Source: Sporosarcina sp. FSL W8-0480
GTDB lineage: Bacteria; Bacillota; Bacilli; Bacillales_A; Planococcaceae
Direction of reading: 5' to 3'
DNA: 64,000 bases
NCBI RefSeq assembly: GCF_037963765.1
Contig: NZ_CP150166.1
Coordinates: 1,028,001-1,092,000, forward strand
Under the pieces are notes generated by a model. That model searched no databases. It was given only the letters and a program-made list of their open reading frames with translations, and had not been told where the DNA came from. Positions 27,192 to 64,000 of the stretch are shown here, one piece after another. Both the position numbers and the translations under genes were made by a program. Positions within the stretch are counted from its first letter, which is position 1. Every line of letters starts with the position of its first letter.

Positions 27192-28541
27192 TTGTCAACT
27201 GCTCCTTTATTGATCGAACAGGAAAAGATTGTAGTAATTGATTTTGGTAGCAAATATAATCAACTAATCACGCGGACGATACGTGAGTTAGGCGTTTACA
27301 GTGAATTACACCCTTATACAGTTACAGCTGATGAACTGAAAAGCATGCAAGCTGTCGGAATCATCCTTGCCGGAAGCGAAAAAGAAGAAATGTTCAGCAT
27401 TGATACTGCAGTGTTCGACTTAGGCATCCCAGTGCTTGGAATCGAATCAGGTGCACAATTCATTGTTAAACATTTCGGGGGAACTTCAGCGTTACCAACC
27501 GGCTTCTCCACAATCGAAACGATTTCAACTGGCGACAACATAAAAGAAGAAATTCGACATTTTGTTGAGGATGTTTGCGAAACAGAAGCAAACTGGTCGA
27601 TGAAAACCTTCATAGAAATTGAAATTGAAAAAATCCGTTCTCAAGTTGGCGATCGAAAAGTCCTTTGTGCACTAAGTGGCGGTGTCGACTCATCGGTAGT
27701 TGCTGCATTGATCCATCGTGCAATCGGTGACCAATTGACTTGTATCTTTGTTGACCATGGTCTGCTTCGTAAAGGTGAAGTAGAAAGTGTTGTCGATACG
27801 TTCAGCAATCAGTTCCATATGAACTTCATTAAAGTGGATGCGCGTAAACGCTTCTTGGACAAGCTGAAAGGCGTAACTGATCCAGAGCAAAAACGTAAAA
27901 TTATCGGAAATGAATTCATCTATGTATTCGATGAGGAATCAGCGAAGCTTGAGGGAATCGACTTCCTTGCACAAGGTACGATCTATGCAGATATTATTGA
28001 GAGTGGAACAGCAACAAAAGAAGTCATCAAATCCCATCATAATGTAGGCGGTCTACCTGAGGACATGGAATTCGAATTGATCGAGCCATTGAAGGCATTA
28101 TTCAAAGATGAAGTTCGTGCAGTCGGCGCTGAACTTGGCCTTCCTTCAGAAATCGTGCATCGCCAACCATTTCCTGGACCAGGACTTGGTGTTCGCGTAT
28201 TAGGTGAAATCACAGAAGAGAAGCTTGATATTGTCCGAGAAGCGGACTGGATTCTTCGTGATGAAATCGCGAAAGCCGGCCTTGACCGTGAAATTTGGCA
28301 GTACTTTGCAATCCTGCCTGATATCCGCAGCGTCGGCGTCAGAAACGAAAAACGTTCTTATGATTACGCAGTGGGACTTCGTGCAGTACATTCAGTAGAT
28401 GGCATGACAGCAGATTGGGCAAGAATTCCTTGGGATATTCTTGAGAAAATCAGCACACGCATCACAACTGAAGTTGACCATGTAAACCGTGTGGTCTATG
28501 ATATTACTGGAAAACCACCTGGCACAATCGAGTGGGAATAA
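27192..28541 (+). CDS. guaA: GMP synthase with degenerate, shortened glutamine amidotransferase domain
   Basis: 449 residues from TTG 27192 (GAGGTGG upstream); glutamine-dependent GMP synthases are about 513. The ATP-pyrophosphatase and dimerisation parts look complete: ALSGGVDSSVVAALIH (P-loop), FVDHGLLRKGE, RQPFPGPGLGVRVLGE and the C-terminal KPPGTIEWE. The N-terminal amidotransferase part begins normally (IVVIDFGSKYNQLITRTIRELG). However, the nucleophile segment reads GIESGAQ where GICYGMQ is usual, so Cys is Glu85 (codon GAA 27444-27446). About 60 residues that normally hold the catalytic His and Glu are absent between residues 98 and 130. XMP amination would therefore have to use free ammonia. 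No frameshift or stop is seen, and the junction is in frame. Confidence 0.95.
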   Translation: MSTAPLLIEQEKIVVIDFGSKYNQLITRTIRELGVYSELHPYTVTADELKSMQAVGIILAGSEKEEMFSIDTAVFDLGIPVLGIESGAQFIVKHFGGTSALPTGFSTIETISTGDNIKEEIRHFVEDVCETEANWSMKTFIEIEIEKIRSQVGDRKVLCALSGGVDSSVVAALIHRAIGDQLTCIFVDHGLLRKGEVESVVDTFSNQFHMNFIKVDARKRFLDKLKGVTDPEQKRKIIGNEFIYVFDEESAKLEGIDFLAQGTIYADIIESGTATKEVIKSHHNVGGLPEDMEFELIEPLKALFKDEVRAVGAELGLPSEIVHRQPFPGPGLGVRVLGEITEEKLDIVREADWILRDEIAKAGLDREIWQYFAILPDIRSVGVRNEKRSYDYAVGLRAVHSVDGMTADWARIPWDILEKISTRITTEVDHVNRVVYDITGKPPGTIEWE

Positions 28542-28555
28542 AACTTAATAAACGC

Positions 28556-28710
28556 ATCGTATAATCTTGGGAATATGGCCCATAAGTCTCTACCGGAACA
28601 CCTTAAATGTTCCGACTACGATATTTGAATTAGATAGGAGAAAATCCTTTTAATTTAACTGTCATTAGGGAAGCATACGAGTATAGGTCGTATGCTTCCT
28701 TTTTTATTTT
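28556..28710 (+). promoter_or_regulatory. Guanine riboswitch with terminator, upstream of pbuG
   Basis: Aptamer 28556-28622: P1 ATCGTA/TACGAT perfect, P2 TGGG/CCCA with loop AATATGG, J2/3 GTCTCTACC, P3 GGAACA/TGTTCC, J3/1 GAC with C74 at 28616, predicting guanine/hypoxanthine. The terminator GGGAAGCATACGA/TCGTATGCTTCC (about 28670-28702) with a long T-tract lies before the pbuG start. Repression by guanine is expected. Confidence 0.94.
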
Positions 28711-28751
28711 TAACACTATGAGACTATGAAACTAATAAAAGGACGGTTATT

Positions 28752-61864: not shown

Positions 61865-62152
61865 ATGACGAAATTTACACAAGACGATGTAAAATACTTC
61901 GCGAATTTCGCAAGGATTGGTGTGTCGGATGAGGAAGCTGAAGTTTTTGCTGATATCATTTCCGATTTGGTCGGTTTTGGCGATGTGTTGAAAGAAGTCC
62001 AAACAGATCATATAGAGCCGATGACTCATCCGTTGCAGTTTGTCAACGTGCTTAGGGAAGATGTTCCACAAGATATTCTTGACCGGGAAGAGATGTTGGC
62101 AAGCGTGGAAGAGCATGAAGCCGGAATGATAAAGGTTCCGAATATCCTGTGA
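61865..62152 (+). CDS. gatC: Aspartyl/glutamyl-tRNA amidotransferase subunit C
   Basis: 95 residues from ATG 61865 (GGGAGGAA upstream). It has VKYFANFARIGVSDEE near the N-terminus, EPMTHPLQFVNVLREDV and the C-terminal EHEAGMIKVPNIL. GatC clamps GatA to GatB in the GatCAB complex that turns Glu-tRNA(Gln) and Asp-tRNA(Asn) into amides. First gene of gatCAB. Confidence 0.95.
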   Translation: MTKFTQDDVKYFANFARIGVSDEEAEVFADIISDLVGFGDVLKEVQTDHIEPMTHPLQFVNVLREDVPQDILDREEMLASVEEHEAGMIKVPNIL

Positions 62153-62177
62153 GAACGGGTTTTGAGGAGGATGTAAT

Positions 62178-63644
62178 ATGACGTTAATGAAAAAGTCGGC
62201 AGCAGAACTTCAACAACTTTTACATAATCGGGAAGTCTCTGTCAAAGAATTGACCGAAGATTCACTGAAACAAATAGAAAAACTTGACGGGAAAGTGCAA
62301 GCATTTCTTAAAGTGACTGAAAAAGAAGCTTTACTTAGGGCGGAGTCTTTAGATAATGAACCGATGGAAAATCGCGGCCCTTTGTTCGGTCTACCAATCG
62401 GGATAAAAGATAATATCATTACAAAAGGCATCACAACGACATGCGCGAGCAAAATGCTTGAAAATTTTGTTCCGGTCTATGATGCGACCGTCATGAACAA
62501 ACTCAACCAGGCCGGCATGGTCAGCGTTGGGAAGTTGAATATGGATGAGTTTGCAATGGGTTCAACAACGGAGCGTTCAGCTTTCAAGACAACGCGCAAT
62601 CCATGGAATTTGGATAGCGTTCCAGGCGGATCTTCAGGTGGATCAGCTGCAGCAGTTGCGGCTGGGGAAGTGCCTTTCTCACTTGGCACAGACACAGGGG
62701 GATCAGTCCGTCAACCTGCCGCTTTTTGTGGTGTTGTCGGGATGAAACCGACATATGGACGAGTATCCCGCAAAGGTCTTGTTGCATTCGCATCGTCTTT
62801 GGACCAAATCGGAACAATCACTCGAACTGTTGAGGACAATGCGCTTCTTTTGAATGCGATTTCAGGAGTGGATCCATGGGATTCATCCTCTTCGTCTATC
62901 CAGGTTCCTGATTTCCGTGCAGGCTTGACTGGCGACATTAAAGGATTGCGAATTGCGGTACCTAAGGAATACTTAGGTGAAGGTATTGCGGAAGACGTAA
63001 AAGAATCCGTTTTGCAAGCATTAAAAGTACTTGAATCCCTTGGTGCAACTTGGGAGGAAGTAACGCTTCCTCATTCCAAATACGCTTCACCGGTCTATTA
63101 TGCAATCGCTACATCAGAAGCTTCTTCAAACCTTGCAAGATTTGACGGCATCCGATATGGATACCATCCGGAAGGCGCAAAGAACTTGGACGAAATCTAT
63201 TTACGTTCACGTTCTGAAGGATTCGGAACTGAAGTGAAGAAGCGTATTCTTTACGGAACTTACGCATTGAGTGCGGATCATCACGAGGACCTTTACGTGA
63301 AGGCGATGAAAGTCCGAACACTAATCGCACAAGACTTTGCGACTTTATTTGAAAAATATGATGTTGTCATCGGTCCTACAAGTGCAACAACAGCCTATAA
63401 AATTGGCAATGTGGTGCAGGACCAATTGACATTGTATGCAAATGATGTATTAACAGTCTCTGTCAACTTGGCAGGTGTTCCGGCAATTTCAGTACCATGT
63501 GGCCTTTCTAATGGAATGCCAGTGGGCTTACAAATTATCGGGAAACATTTTGATGAGGCACTCCTATACAAAGTGGCTCACGCTTATGAGCAAGCGACTG
63601 ATTTTCATACGCAATCTCCATCTTTAGGGGAGGGGAATGAATAA
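62178..63644 (+). CDS. gatA: Aspartyl/glutamyl-tRNA amidotransferase subunit A
   Basis: 488 residues, amidase-signature family. The Ser-cis-Ser-Lys triad is retained: Lys77 (GIKDN), Ser152 (GGSSGGSAAA) and Ser176 (DTGGSVRQPA). Residues equivalent to the glutamine ligands Tyr, Arg and Asp (Tyr307, Arg356, Asp423) are also there. However, some usually strict segments differ: LSADHHEDLY for LSSGYYDAYY (about residues 364-373), GPTSAT for GPTTPT, IGTITR for IGPITR. Glutaminase may be retained or weakened. GGAGG precedes ATG 62178. The stop overlaps the gatB start by 1 nt. Confidence 0.95.
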   Translation: MTLMKKSAAELQQLLHNREVSVKELTEDSLKQIEKLDGKVQAFLKVTEKEALLRAESLDNEPMENRGPLFGLPIGIKDNIITKGITTTCASKMLENFVPVYDATVMNKLNQAGMVSVGKLNMDEFAMGSTTERSAFKTTRNPWNLDSVPGGSSGGSAAAVAAGEVPFSLGTDTGGSVRQPAAFCGVVGMKPTYGRVSRKGLVAFASSLDQIGTITRTVEDNALLLNAISGVDPWDSSSSSIQVPDFRAGLTGDIKGLRIAVPKEYLGEGIAEDVKESVLQALKVLESLGATWEEVTLPHSKYASPVYYAIATSEASSNLARFDGIRYGYHPEGAKNLDEIYLRSRSEGFGTEVKKRILYGTYALSADHHEDLYVKAMKVRTLIAQDFATLFEKYDVVIGPTSATTAYKIGNVVQDQLTLYANDVLTVSVNLAGVPAISVPCGLSNGMPVGLQIIGKHFDEALLYKVAHAYEQATDFHTQSPSLGEGNE

Positions 63645-64000
63645 TGAACTTTGAAACGATTGTAGGGCTTGAAGTCCACGTTGAATTGAAAACTGATACG
63701 AAAATCTTCTCGCCGGCACCATCCCATTACGGAGCGGAGCCGAATATGAATATTCATGTCACTGACTTGGCATACCCGGGTACGCTTCCAACGTTGAATA
63801 AACGTGCAGTTGACTTCGGTATGAAAGCTTCGTTTGCCTTGAACTGTGAAGTGGCGGACGTCATGAATTTCGACCGGAAACATTATTTCTATCCGGACAA
63901 TCCGGCAGCATACCAAATTTCCCAAGATAAACGTCCTGTCGGCCAAAACGGCTGGATTGAGATTGAAGTTGAAGGGAAAAAGAAAAAAATCCGTATCGAA
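63644..64000 (+). CDS. gatB: Aspartyl/glutamyl-tRNA amidotransferase subunit B (3' partial)
   Basis: 119 residues are visible before the window ends. ETIVGLEVHVELKT and HYFYPDNPAAYQIS identify GatB, with the metal-site His12 and Glu10 retained. GatB holds the kinase and transamidase site and receives ammonia from GatA through an internal tunnel. The lysine of the usual DNPKAY motif is Ala88 here (GCA 63905-63907). From memory this lysine lines the ammonia tunnel in the Staphylococcus aureus structure. Lys79 is kept. Confidence 0.95.
   Translation, partial: MNFETIVGLEVHVELKTDTKIFSPAPSHYGAEPNMNIHVTDLAYPGTLPTLNKRAVDFGMKASFALNCEVADVMNFDRKHYFYPDNPAAYQISQDKRPVGQNGWIEIEVEGKKKKIRIE

Follow-up and report, generated by a model that had tools for sequence, protein, structure and literature searches.

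The stretch of the Sporosarcina sp. FSL W8-0480 genome analysed here (contig NZ_CP150166.1, positions 1,028,001–1,092,000, 64,000 nucleotides; hereafter the window) encodes several enzymes of purine synthesis and tRNA amidation that ordinarily draw nitrogen from glutamine (Table 1), and it raises the question of whether they still do. A sequence-only reading had proposed a system-wide loss of glutamine use that covered purine and tRNA amidotransferases alike and left the synthetase parts in place. Our analysis strongly supports a clade-wide, multi-enzyme loss of this kind on the nucleotide side. Carbamoyl-phosphate synthetase, CTP synthase, FGAM synthase and, in most of the genomes examined, GMP synthase no longer have their glutaminase sites, the synthetase sites being conserved, and these enzymes therefore likely take free ammonia directly (a probability of about 0.85, as judged from sequence comparison). 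The tRNA amidotransferase GatCAB does not share in the loss.

Table 1. Genes of the window discussed in the text (positions are those of the window).
Gene	Position	Strand	Description	Basis
guaA	27192..28541	+	GMP synthase with gutted glutaminase domain	449 aa
purS	39040..39294	+	FGAM synthase small subunit	PF02700 98.8 bits
purQ	39291..39977	+	FGAM synthase glutaminase subunit without catalytic Cys and His	alignment, NF002957
purL	39952..42192	+	FGAM synthase large subunit, changed site (T. maritima His74 to Ser, Tyr482 to Ser)	
purF	42168..43595	+	class II amidotransferase, catalytic Cys kept; not scored as loss	
gatC	61763..62152	+	open frame, true start uncertain	PF02686 63.5 bits, TIGR00135 77.4 bits
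gatA	62178..63644	+	Lys-Ser-Ser triad and Arg/Asp positions retained	alignment
gatB	63644..64000	+	gene start, runs past window end	alignment

GuaA has lost much of its glutaminase domain. Its likely start is the TTG at 27192, although the frame can be read from 27174 (455 aa); the corresponding frame of Bacillus mojavensis has 516 aa. The position of the catalytic Cys is occupied by Glu (codon 27444–27446), and two internal deletions, of ∼ 40 residues near 27486 and ∼ 24 residues near 27537, take out the second half of the GATase domain including the His-x-Glu motif, so that the whole triad is gone. The N-terminal model TIGR00888 reaches 85.9 bits, below its cut-off of 172.15, and its match goes no further than position 91 of the 188 in the profile. 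NF000848 shows a complete synthetase part (633.5 bits with a cut-off of 400), and the ATP pyrophosphatase and C-terminal domains are likewise complete (TIGR00884, 510.5 bits with a cut-off of 338.75; PF00958, 146 bits). Alignment and family models thus bear out the proposed absence of the Cys and of about 64 glutaminase-domain residues, and a genome-wide search at E ≤ 1e-60 returned this single GuaA, with no second, intact copy.

In PurQ, the catalytic Cys has been replaced by Gly (codon GGG, 39546–39548; LGVGNGFQ, compared with LGVCNGFQ in Cys-bearing relatives) and the His by Leu (codon CTG, 39873–39875; MPLPERA, compared with MPHPERA), which substantiates the suggested double loss at the codon level. 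The triad positions accordingly read Gly, Leu and Glu in place of Cys-His-Glu, although the protein stands above its family cut-off (NF002957, 279.9 bits versus 212). A genome-wide search to E 1 with PF00117, a model against which an ordinary PurQ scores 33.2 bits, revealed no second PurQ, intact or otherwise. The Cys is missing in all 120 of the closest PurQ proteins and present at 67 of 81 loci in a panel made up of the best 80 of 588 PurL relatives and the window locus; its loss across relatives is, on these sequences, more than chance.

The partner subunit has changed in step. PurL carries Ser (codon 40264–40266) at the position of T. maritima His74, and this replacement is found at 13 of the 14 panel loci with a Cys-less PurQ and at none of the 67 that retain the PurQ Cys. 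All 81 loci conserve the counterparts of His32 and His72 of the T. maritima enzyme, and His72 can be dismissed as the changed residue, the numbering placing the change at 74. The PurL motif change noticed earlier is therefore real and covaries with the loss of the PurQ Cys. Since PurL has been remodelled together with PurQ, the losses are not simple decay, as the first reading had also held. Trees place the PurL of Metalysinibacillus with Savagea and its PurF with Lysinibacillus relatives, and both PurL and PurF of another genome (G116), which bear intact residues, with Bacillus; these trees suggest that the PurL type has moved horizontally.

Not every enzyme of the window is affected. PurF, whose start is the ATG at 42168 within a longer TTG frame, was suspected of a change tied to glutamine handling, and the loop beside the glutamine site is indeed altered (Ala76 to Glu in B. 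subtilis numbering, codon 42426–42428), but the catalytic Cys1 (codon 42201–42203) and the Arg, Thr, Asn-Gly and Asp positions, which we take to be glutamine contacts, are all retained, which rules out a catalytic loss. In the Sporosarcina clade (n = 24), PurF keeps the Cys in 24/24 genomes, the Arg in 23/24, the Thr in 21/24 (Ser in the other three) and Asn-Gly-Asp in 24/24. The proposed conversion of GatA and GatB has to be rejected. In a comparison that concerned the GatA of this genome only, K79, S154 and S178 (S. aureus numbering), presumably the catalytic triad, are present, as are R358 and D425, presumably glutamine-site residues, and 20 of the 23 compared positions are identical; GatB can be aligned with its S. 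aureus counterpart from end to end (742 bits).

A check of other amidotransferases of this genome uncovered further losses. CTP synthase (PyrG) has Gly in place of the GATase Cys nucleophile. The carB gene directly follows pyrC, with no carA beside it and no CarA-type PF00117 match, although a CarA devoid of the GATase domain could lie elsewhere in the genome. Six PF00117 matches were found to E 1: the Cys-less PyrG, GuaA, PurQ, a Peptidase_C26 protein with Cys, a protein of the DJ-1/PfpI type and a false match resembling TsaB. By searches whose absence calls hinge on the thresholds used, this genome gave no match for GlmS, AsnB, PdxT, TrpG/PabA, HisH or glutamine synthetase (GlnA); its NagB scores 235.5 bits, just below the cut-off of 236.9.

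These data bear on the strongest of the alternatives, namely that a separate glutaminase or the Peptidase_C26 protein splits glutamine in trans, making glutamine an indirect donor via ammonia. The genome does retain this one class I GATase-fold hydrolase with a Cys (GICRGHQ; 257-aa frame, PF07722 229.7 bits, gamma-glutamyl-GABA-hydrolase-like), and PurF and GatA look glutamine-competent. However, in the absence of a glutamine synthetase match, glutamine would have to be imported; the Peptidase_C26 gene adjoins an asparaginase gene (PF06089) and a binding-protein-like frame, a context of catabolic type; and S. pasteurii DSM33 is described as growing without glutamine, with urea able to replace ammonia (PMC7775470). 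We consider this alternative improbable.

Analysis of 34 hand-picked genomes, 25 from the Sporosarcina clade and nine others, whose counts do not represent independent events because close pairs are included, showed that the catalytic Cys has been lost from CarA in 21/21 clade genomes (four had no CarA match), from PyrG in 25/25, from PurQ in 23/24 (one genome, G027, was left out of the PurQ, PurL and PurF columns) and from GuaA in 18/25. Six of the nine other genomes keep all four Cys residues, and three have lost one or two. The CarA site is Gly in all 21 genomes, each of which also carries CarB above cut-off. Seven clade genomes, putative S. pasteurii among them, retain the GuaA triad, whereas the others include several distinct deletion forms. 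Most likely, the CarA, PyrG and PurQ losses are older than the radiation of the clade, and the erosion of GuaA came later and more than once. Full-length GlmS was not found in 17 of the 25 clade genomes (seven have GlmS above cut-off, with the N-terminal Cys), nor PdxT in any of the 25. In a 151-genome sample of the family, to which genomes G151, G152 and G154–G160 do not belong, GlnA gave no match (E ≤ 1e-20) in seven of the 17 genus genomes, including this one, as compared with two of 134 others; ten of the 17 retain it. The GlnA of clade genome G039 is a weaker match (E 3e-99 versus about 1e-140).

Whether the affected pathways are simply dying, with purines and pyrimidines salvaged and the operons on their way to pseudogenes, can be judged from mean identities within the clade as compared with those within six outgroups. 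They are 88 versus 82% for the PyrG synthetase part and 69 versus 74% for its GATase; 79 versus 88% for the GuaA synthetase part and 53 versus 73% for its GATase; and 68 versus 79% for PurQ, with PurL at 83 versus 81%. The GATase of PurF (83 versus 73%) is not relaxed, and that of CarA (75.0 versus 74.4%) not clearly so. The varied shortening of GuaA, its somewhat less conserved synthetase part and the absence of CarB above cut-off from 3/25 clade genomes are what dying pathways might leave, but the synthetase parts of PyrG, PurL and PurF match or exceed the outgroup level of conservation, the reading frames and the overlaps within the operons are intact, as first noted, and the changes strike specific catalytic residues throughout the clade. 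Such decay is accordingly very unlikely.

It is slightly less likely still that the altered domains split glutamine with another nucleophile. Ser does replace Cys in 16 of the 25 clade PyrG (with seven Gly and two Ala) and 11 of the 25 GuaA, PyrG retains His and Glu in 25/25 genomes, and of the 21 CarA all retain Glu and 17 retain His; but the site may also hold Gly, Ala, Asn, Glu or Asp, PurQ has lost its His as well (23/24), and the GuaA of the window lacks the whole region. A sequencing or assembly artefact is scarcely conceivable, the same changes recurring in many genomes that were sequenced separately and in contigs from metagenomes.

Direct use of free ammonia is thus the most probable reading, and the question of its source follows. 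The suggestion that an ammonia-rich cell, for example one with urease, removed selection for glutaminases fits the occurrence of urease both in this genome and across the clade (21 of 25 genomes), the missing GlnA match and the physiology of S. pasteurii; the part assigned to urease stands less well. Urease is not required, and cannot be the whole or sole cause, because four clade genomes with losses gave no urease match (G161 and G027, both of Savagea type, the MAG G155, and G039). S. pasteurii belongs to the same group of organisms and, according to 1989 work cited in PMC7775470, has neither GS nor GOGAT activity, in agreement with the missing GlnA match. Some strains are reported there to require glutamine. 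Washed cells of S. pasteurii are described elsewhere as failing to grow in TSB without urea. The 1989 work, as far as it is cited, concerns enzyme activities and not amidotransferase losses, and a search of openly licensed PMC papers, those on Sporosarcina included, found no report of them.

Under direct ammonia use, ammonia, whether released by urease or supplied by a habitat rich in it, would diffuse into the synthetase sites, and the PurL changes would fit its site to ammonia from solution and not from PurQ. GlcN6P might come from NagB working in reverse, although in Akkermansia without GlmS, NagB is reported to have been unable to make GlcN6P. The main need for glutamine would then be as a tRNA-made residue via GatCAB, and perhaps as a substrate of PurF; its use may persist in these two because the PurF Cys is kept in every clade genome scored, its GATase is not relaxed and GatA is intact.

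Vertebrate carbamoyl-phosphate synthetase I offers a precedent: its glutaminase nucleophile is gone, the domain is still present, and the enzyme uses free ammonia in an ammonia-rich compartment. In the clade, the CarA nucleophile is similarly replaced and the synthetase subunit kept, and the enzyme is predicted to use ammonia. The vertebrate case, however, involves one enzyme of one pathway under N-acetylglutamate control, whereas several enzymes of different pathways are affected here. The ammonia-using NAD synthetase NadE likewise has free ammonia as its physiological donor and no glutaminase, but in the account of PMC3376133 ammonia use is proposed to be ancestral and glutamine use gained, the reverse of the clade. 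The synthetase part of the two-subunit archaeal GMP synthase can work with external ammonia in vitro, as we envisage for GuaA, but it has a separate working glutaminase subunit (PMC10526850), none of which was found in the Sporosarcina genome. The ant symbiont Blochmannia vafer resembles this genome in having urease and lacking glnA, and its carAB, the authors suggest, may use ammonia; it is an obligate intracellular symbiont, however, and the main text of the paper (PMC3017870) contains neither the word amidotransferase nor the word glutaminase.

A bolder interpretation, which we regard as evenly poised, is that a free-living group has given up glutamine as its currency for nitrogen, with glutamine synthetase absent in some members, the pyrimidine, CTP, FGAM and GMP glutaminase sites gone, GlmS often gone, and PdxT and the tryptophan and folate glutaminases gone as well. 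Nearly all amidations would then run on NH3, with glutamine serving only as a tRNA-made residue, and FGAM synthase would have been remodelled into an ammonia-using enzyme (PurQ a dead scaffold, PurL with His74 changed to Ser) in a module mobile between genera.

The synthesis of nucleotides and amino sugars is usually taken to rely on glutamine as general amide donor, yet a cultured genus widely used in biocementation appears to have dropped it in several pathways together. Names like 'glutamine-hydrolyzing GMP synthase', which the shortened clade proteins bear at source, are misleading, and the clade enzymes are, on their sequences, ready candidates for ammonia-driven enzymes. The clade presents a natural series from intact domains through single-residue loss to domain deletion, which suggests that glutaminase domains are dispensable under plentiful ammonia, and the losses are a possible genetic cause of the need for ammonia that has long been reported for S. 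pasteurii.

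The window (bases 1,028,001–1,092,000 of the single-contig 3.25-Mb genome) encodes a PurQ with Gly and Leu in place of the catalytic Cys and His, in line with the loss stated by the sequence-only reading. In a collection of 5.8 billion proteins, the 120 nearest to this PurQ all lack the Cys (119 have Gly and one Ser), and one of them (P0100) bears the name S. pasteurii. The claimed loss of the Cys and about 64 glutaminase-domain residues from GuaA was also borne out: this 449-aa protein has Glu at the Cys position and two internal deletions, of ∼ 40 and ∼ 24 residues, which take out the second half of its GATase domain. 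The nearest relative among the loci found is Sporosarcina highlanderae (PurL 94% identical).

Features of the window in gene order
Feature	Position in window	Remarks
guaA	27192 (start)	TTG start codon
Purine-permease-type gene (PF00860)		After guaA
Stretch of ∼ 6 kb		No long gene; follows the permease-type gene
Tandem repeat	35749–36199	11.3 copies of 40 bases (alternatively, a 120-base unit); in the gap that follows the permease-type gene and precedes purE
purE-purK-purS-purQ-purL-purF-purM-purN-purH-purD		After the ∼ 6-kb gap
purK to purS	37390–39294	No purB or purC in between
Extended purH frame	45463 (start)	Begins with a repeat-like frame similar to the tandem repeat
gatC-gatA-gatB		Later than the pur genes

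Frames resembling the repeat were also seen in other stretches of the genome (L004, L006). In B. subtilis, purB and purC sit between purK and purS.

A search with the window GuaA gave matches at E 1e-60 in 150 of the 151 family genomes; taking the best place per genome among the matches listed, its own frame (462 aa) alone was shorter than 500 aa, and the best place in genome G140, a 453-aa frame, was found below the listed matches. A different short form occurs in S. limicola, strain BP05 and G140. Fifteen of the 120 closest GuaA proteins have fewer than 490 aa, although some could be partial, and the five of these that were displayed include three more deletion patterns. Two GuaA-like places were seen in some family genomes outside the genus (G075, G018, G065, G016 and others); in G075 the second copy (frame of 443 aa, 59% identical) is no longer than the window GuaA.

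A PF00117 search of the same genome down to E 1 returned six places, namely GuaA, PurQ, CTP synthase (PyrG), a Peptidase_C26 protein, a DJ-1/PfpI protein and a TsaB-like false hit. CTP synthase has Gly for Cys (FFGVGLGMQ); the Peptidase_C26 protein keeps its Cys. This search found no CarA, with a full carB lying directly after pyrC, and excluded HisH for this genome only. PurF was the sole match to PF13522, and thus the genome has no GlmS or AsnB glutaminase domain; PurF was likewise the sole match to the GlmS model, and neither PdxT nor glutamine synthetase gave a match. Urease alpha is present, next to frames that by reading look like accessory genes, as is NagB (PF01182), whose TIGR00502 score (235.5 bits) is just below the cut-off of 236.9.

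Catalytic residues were scored in 25 Sporosarcina-clade genomes, two of Savagea type among them, and nine others, all hand-picked, with numbers differing by protein. In the clade, the Cys has been lost from CarA (21/21), PyrG (25/25), PurQ (23/24) and GuaA (18/25), whereas six of the nine other genomes have all four intact. Among the latter nine, the loss is confined to PurQ in Metalysinibacillus and extends from PurQ to CarA in Bhargavaea and to one CarA copy in B. chungangensis. In Bacillus chungangensis (L056, G169) the PurQ Cys is Ala and the one CarA-type frame read, of two, has Gly; in Bhargavaea cecembensis (L024, G167) the PurQ Cys is Gly, and both Cys and His of CarA are Asn. These partial losses are apparently separate events. 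The Cys is absent from all of the 49 closest PyrG proteins; the 120 closest comprise 57 without it, 61 with it and two that could not be parsed. In the inferred S. pasteurii genome (G021), the Cys is absent from CarA, PyrG and PurQ, the triad of GuaA is intact, and neither GlnA nor full GlmS gave a match.

GlnA matches (E ≤ 1e-20) were found in 142 of the 151 family genomes, and in 10 of the 17 within the genus. Seven of the 25 clade genomes have GlmS above the cut-off, all with the N-terminal Cys; the full-length match in the Savagea-type genome G027 falls short of it, and in the remaining 17 the GlmS model matched PurF or SIS fragments only. PdxT was found in none of the 25; six of the nine others gave strong matches, and Metalysinibacillus a weak one (29.7 bits) at a HisH-like frame. 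Among the PF00117 matches listed (to E ∼ 5e-16), no TrpG/PabA-like frames came from the clade, whereas the others have them. The two Savagea-type genomes, G161 and G027, show glutaminase losses and no urease match; a divergent GlmS-like protein (383 bits) is the second of its kind in G161, while the only one in G027 is below threshold (346 bits).

PurL has changed together with PurQ. Among 81 pur loci (the best 80 of 588 PurL relatives plus the window), PurQ lacks the Cys in 14. In 13 of these, and in none of the 67 with Cys, the PurL His at T. maritima position 74 is Ser, as expected from the claimed change of a PurL motif; the same 13 have Glu, Asp or Lys at PurF loop position Ala76 (B. subtilis numbering), which is Ala in 67/67 loci with Cys. 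B. chungangensis alone departs from this pattern. All 81 loci retain T. maritima His32 and His72 in PurL, which we take to be the catalytic positions that have been studied. The PurL change may adapt the enzyme to ammonia from solution. Shared descent accounts for much of this count, but in Metalysinibacillus the loop change sits on a PurF of another lineage. For PurF, the claim of alteration stands for the loop and not for the catalytic Cys (kept in 24/24) or the Arg that presumably contacts glutamine (23/24), the clade exceptions being Arg to Leu in HYO08 and Thr to Ser in three. The proposed changes in GatA and GatB were contradicted: in this genome the triad and the glutamine-site residues of GatA are retained, and GatB can be aligned over its full length.

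Mean pairwise identities in the clade (without G116) and in six outgroups (without Metalysinibacillus, Bhargavaea and B. chungangensis) were 88.2 vs 81.7% for the PyrG synthetase and 69.3 vs 73.8% for its GATase part, 79.4 vs 87.8% and 52.8 vs 73.0% for those of GuaA, and 82.8 vs 81.2% for PurL and 67.6 vs 78.6% for PurQ. For the CarA N-domain and GATase they were 77.7 vs 66.5% and 75.0 vs 74.4%, and for the PurF GATase and PRTase 82.7 vs 72.6% and 87.2 vs 79.3%. Thus, in PyrG, GuaA and PurQ the glutaminase portion diverges more quickly than the part it works with; CarA shows this mildly and PurF does not, which upholds the view that this is not general decay.

In a tree of the PyrG and GuaA synthetase parts, used as a species proxy, the 25 clade genomes split from the nine others (100/99). 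PurL of Metalysinibacillus falls within the clade, next to Savagea (100/99), whereas its PurF (100/99) and species proxy (92/99) group with Lysinibacillus and Ureibacillus, so that its Cys-less type was likely gained horizontally. Metalysinibacillus jejuensis (L016) combines Cys-less PurQ and Ser-type PurL with CarA, PyrG and GuaA that keep the Cys; its PyrG match contains one internal stop (TAA). G116, inside the clade by the proxy, has intact PurQ and PurL residues and a Bacillus-type purQLF (L258), its PurL and PurF (both 100/99) grouping with two Bacillus genomes. Its purine genes were likely replaced by an ordinary operon, which would be a natural reversal by gene transfer. The PyrG and GuaA of G116 lack the Cys, and it gave no match for CarA or CarB. 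As G116, Bhargavaea and B. chungangensis are flagged as long branches, these placements should be regarded as likely, not as proven.

In the proposed mechanism, the synthetase parts of such enzymes would be fed by external ammonia; were ammonia constantly present, the glutaminase would be of no benefit and would be lost. According to excerpts of one report, the synthetase part of GMP synthase can use external ammonia, with a Km for NH4Cl that varies widely, up to 174 mM in the human enzyme (PMC10526850). The sequence-only reading gave urease as an example of an ammonia source, and it was found in 21/25 clade and 2/9 other genomes; however, four clade genomes gave no match, so an ammonia-rich habitat is more likely the common factor. 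GlcN6P would be made via NagB, which is the weakest step, because NagB of Akkermansia, also without GlmS, did not make GlcN6P (PMC5902328, in part). Published S. pasteurii physiology mostly agrees with a loss of glutamine use: excerpts describe this species as lacking GS and GOGAT activity, strain DSM33 as growing without glutamine and urea as a substitute for ammonia (PMC7775470), and washed cells as failing to grow in TSB without urea, with pH a confounder (PMC6979283). Against this, the same excerpts mention other strains as needing glutamine (PMC7775470).

Homologues that use ammonia are known singly. CPS I is one such case. Excerpts of earlier work add NadE (PMC3376133) and describe an ant symbiont, Blochmannia vafer, that has lost glnA and kept urease (PMC3017870). 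In the open-licence literature searched, we found no report of free-living bacteria in which several pathways have undergone such losses in concert. Judged from the sequences, such a concerted loss would be the stronger, system-level claim, and the changes in individual enzymes would be variations on known cases.
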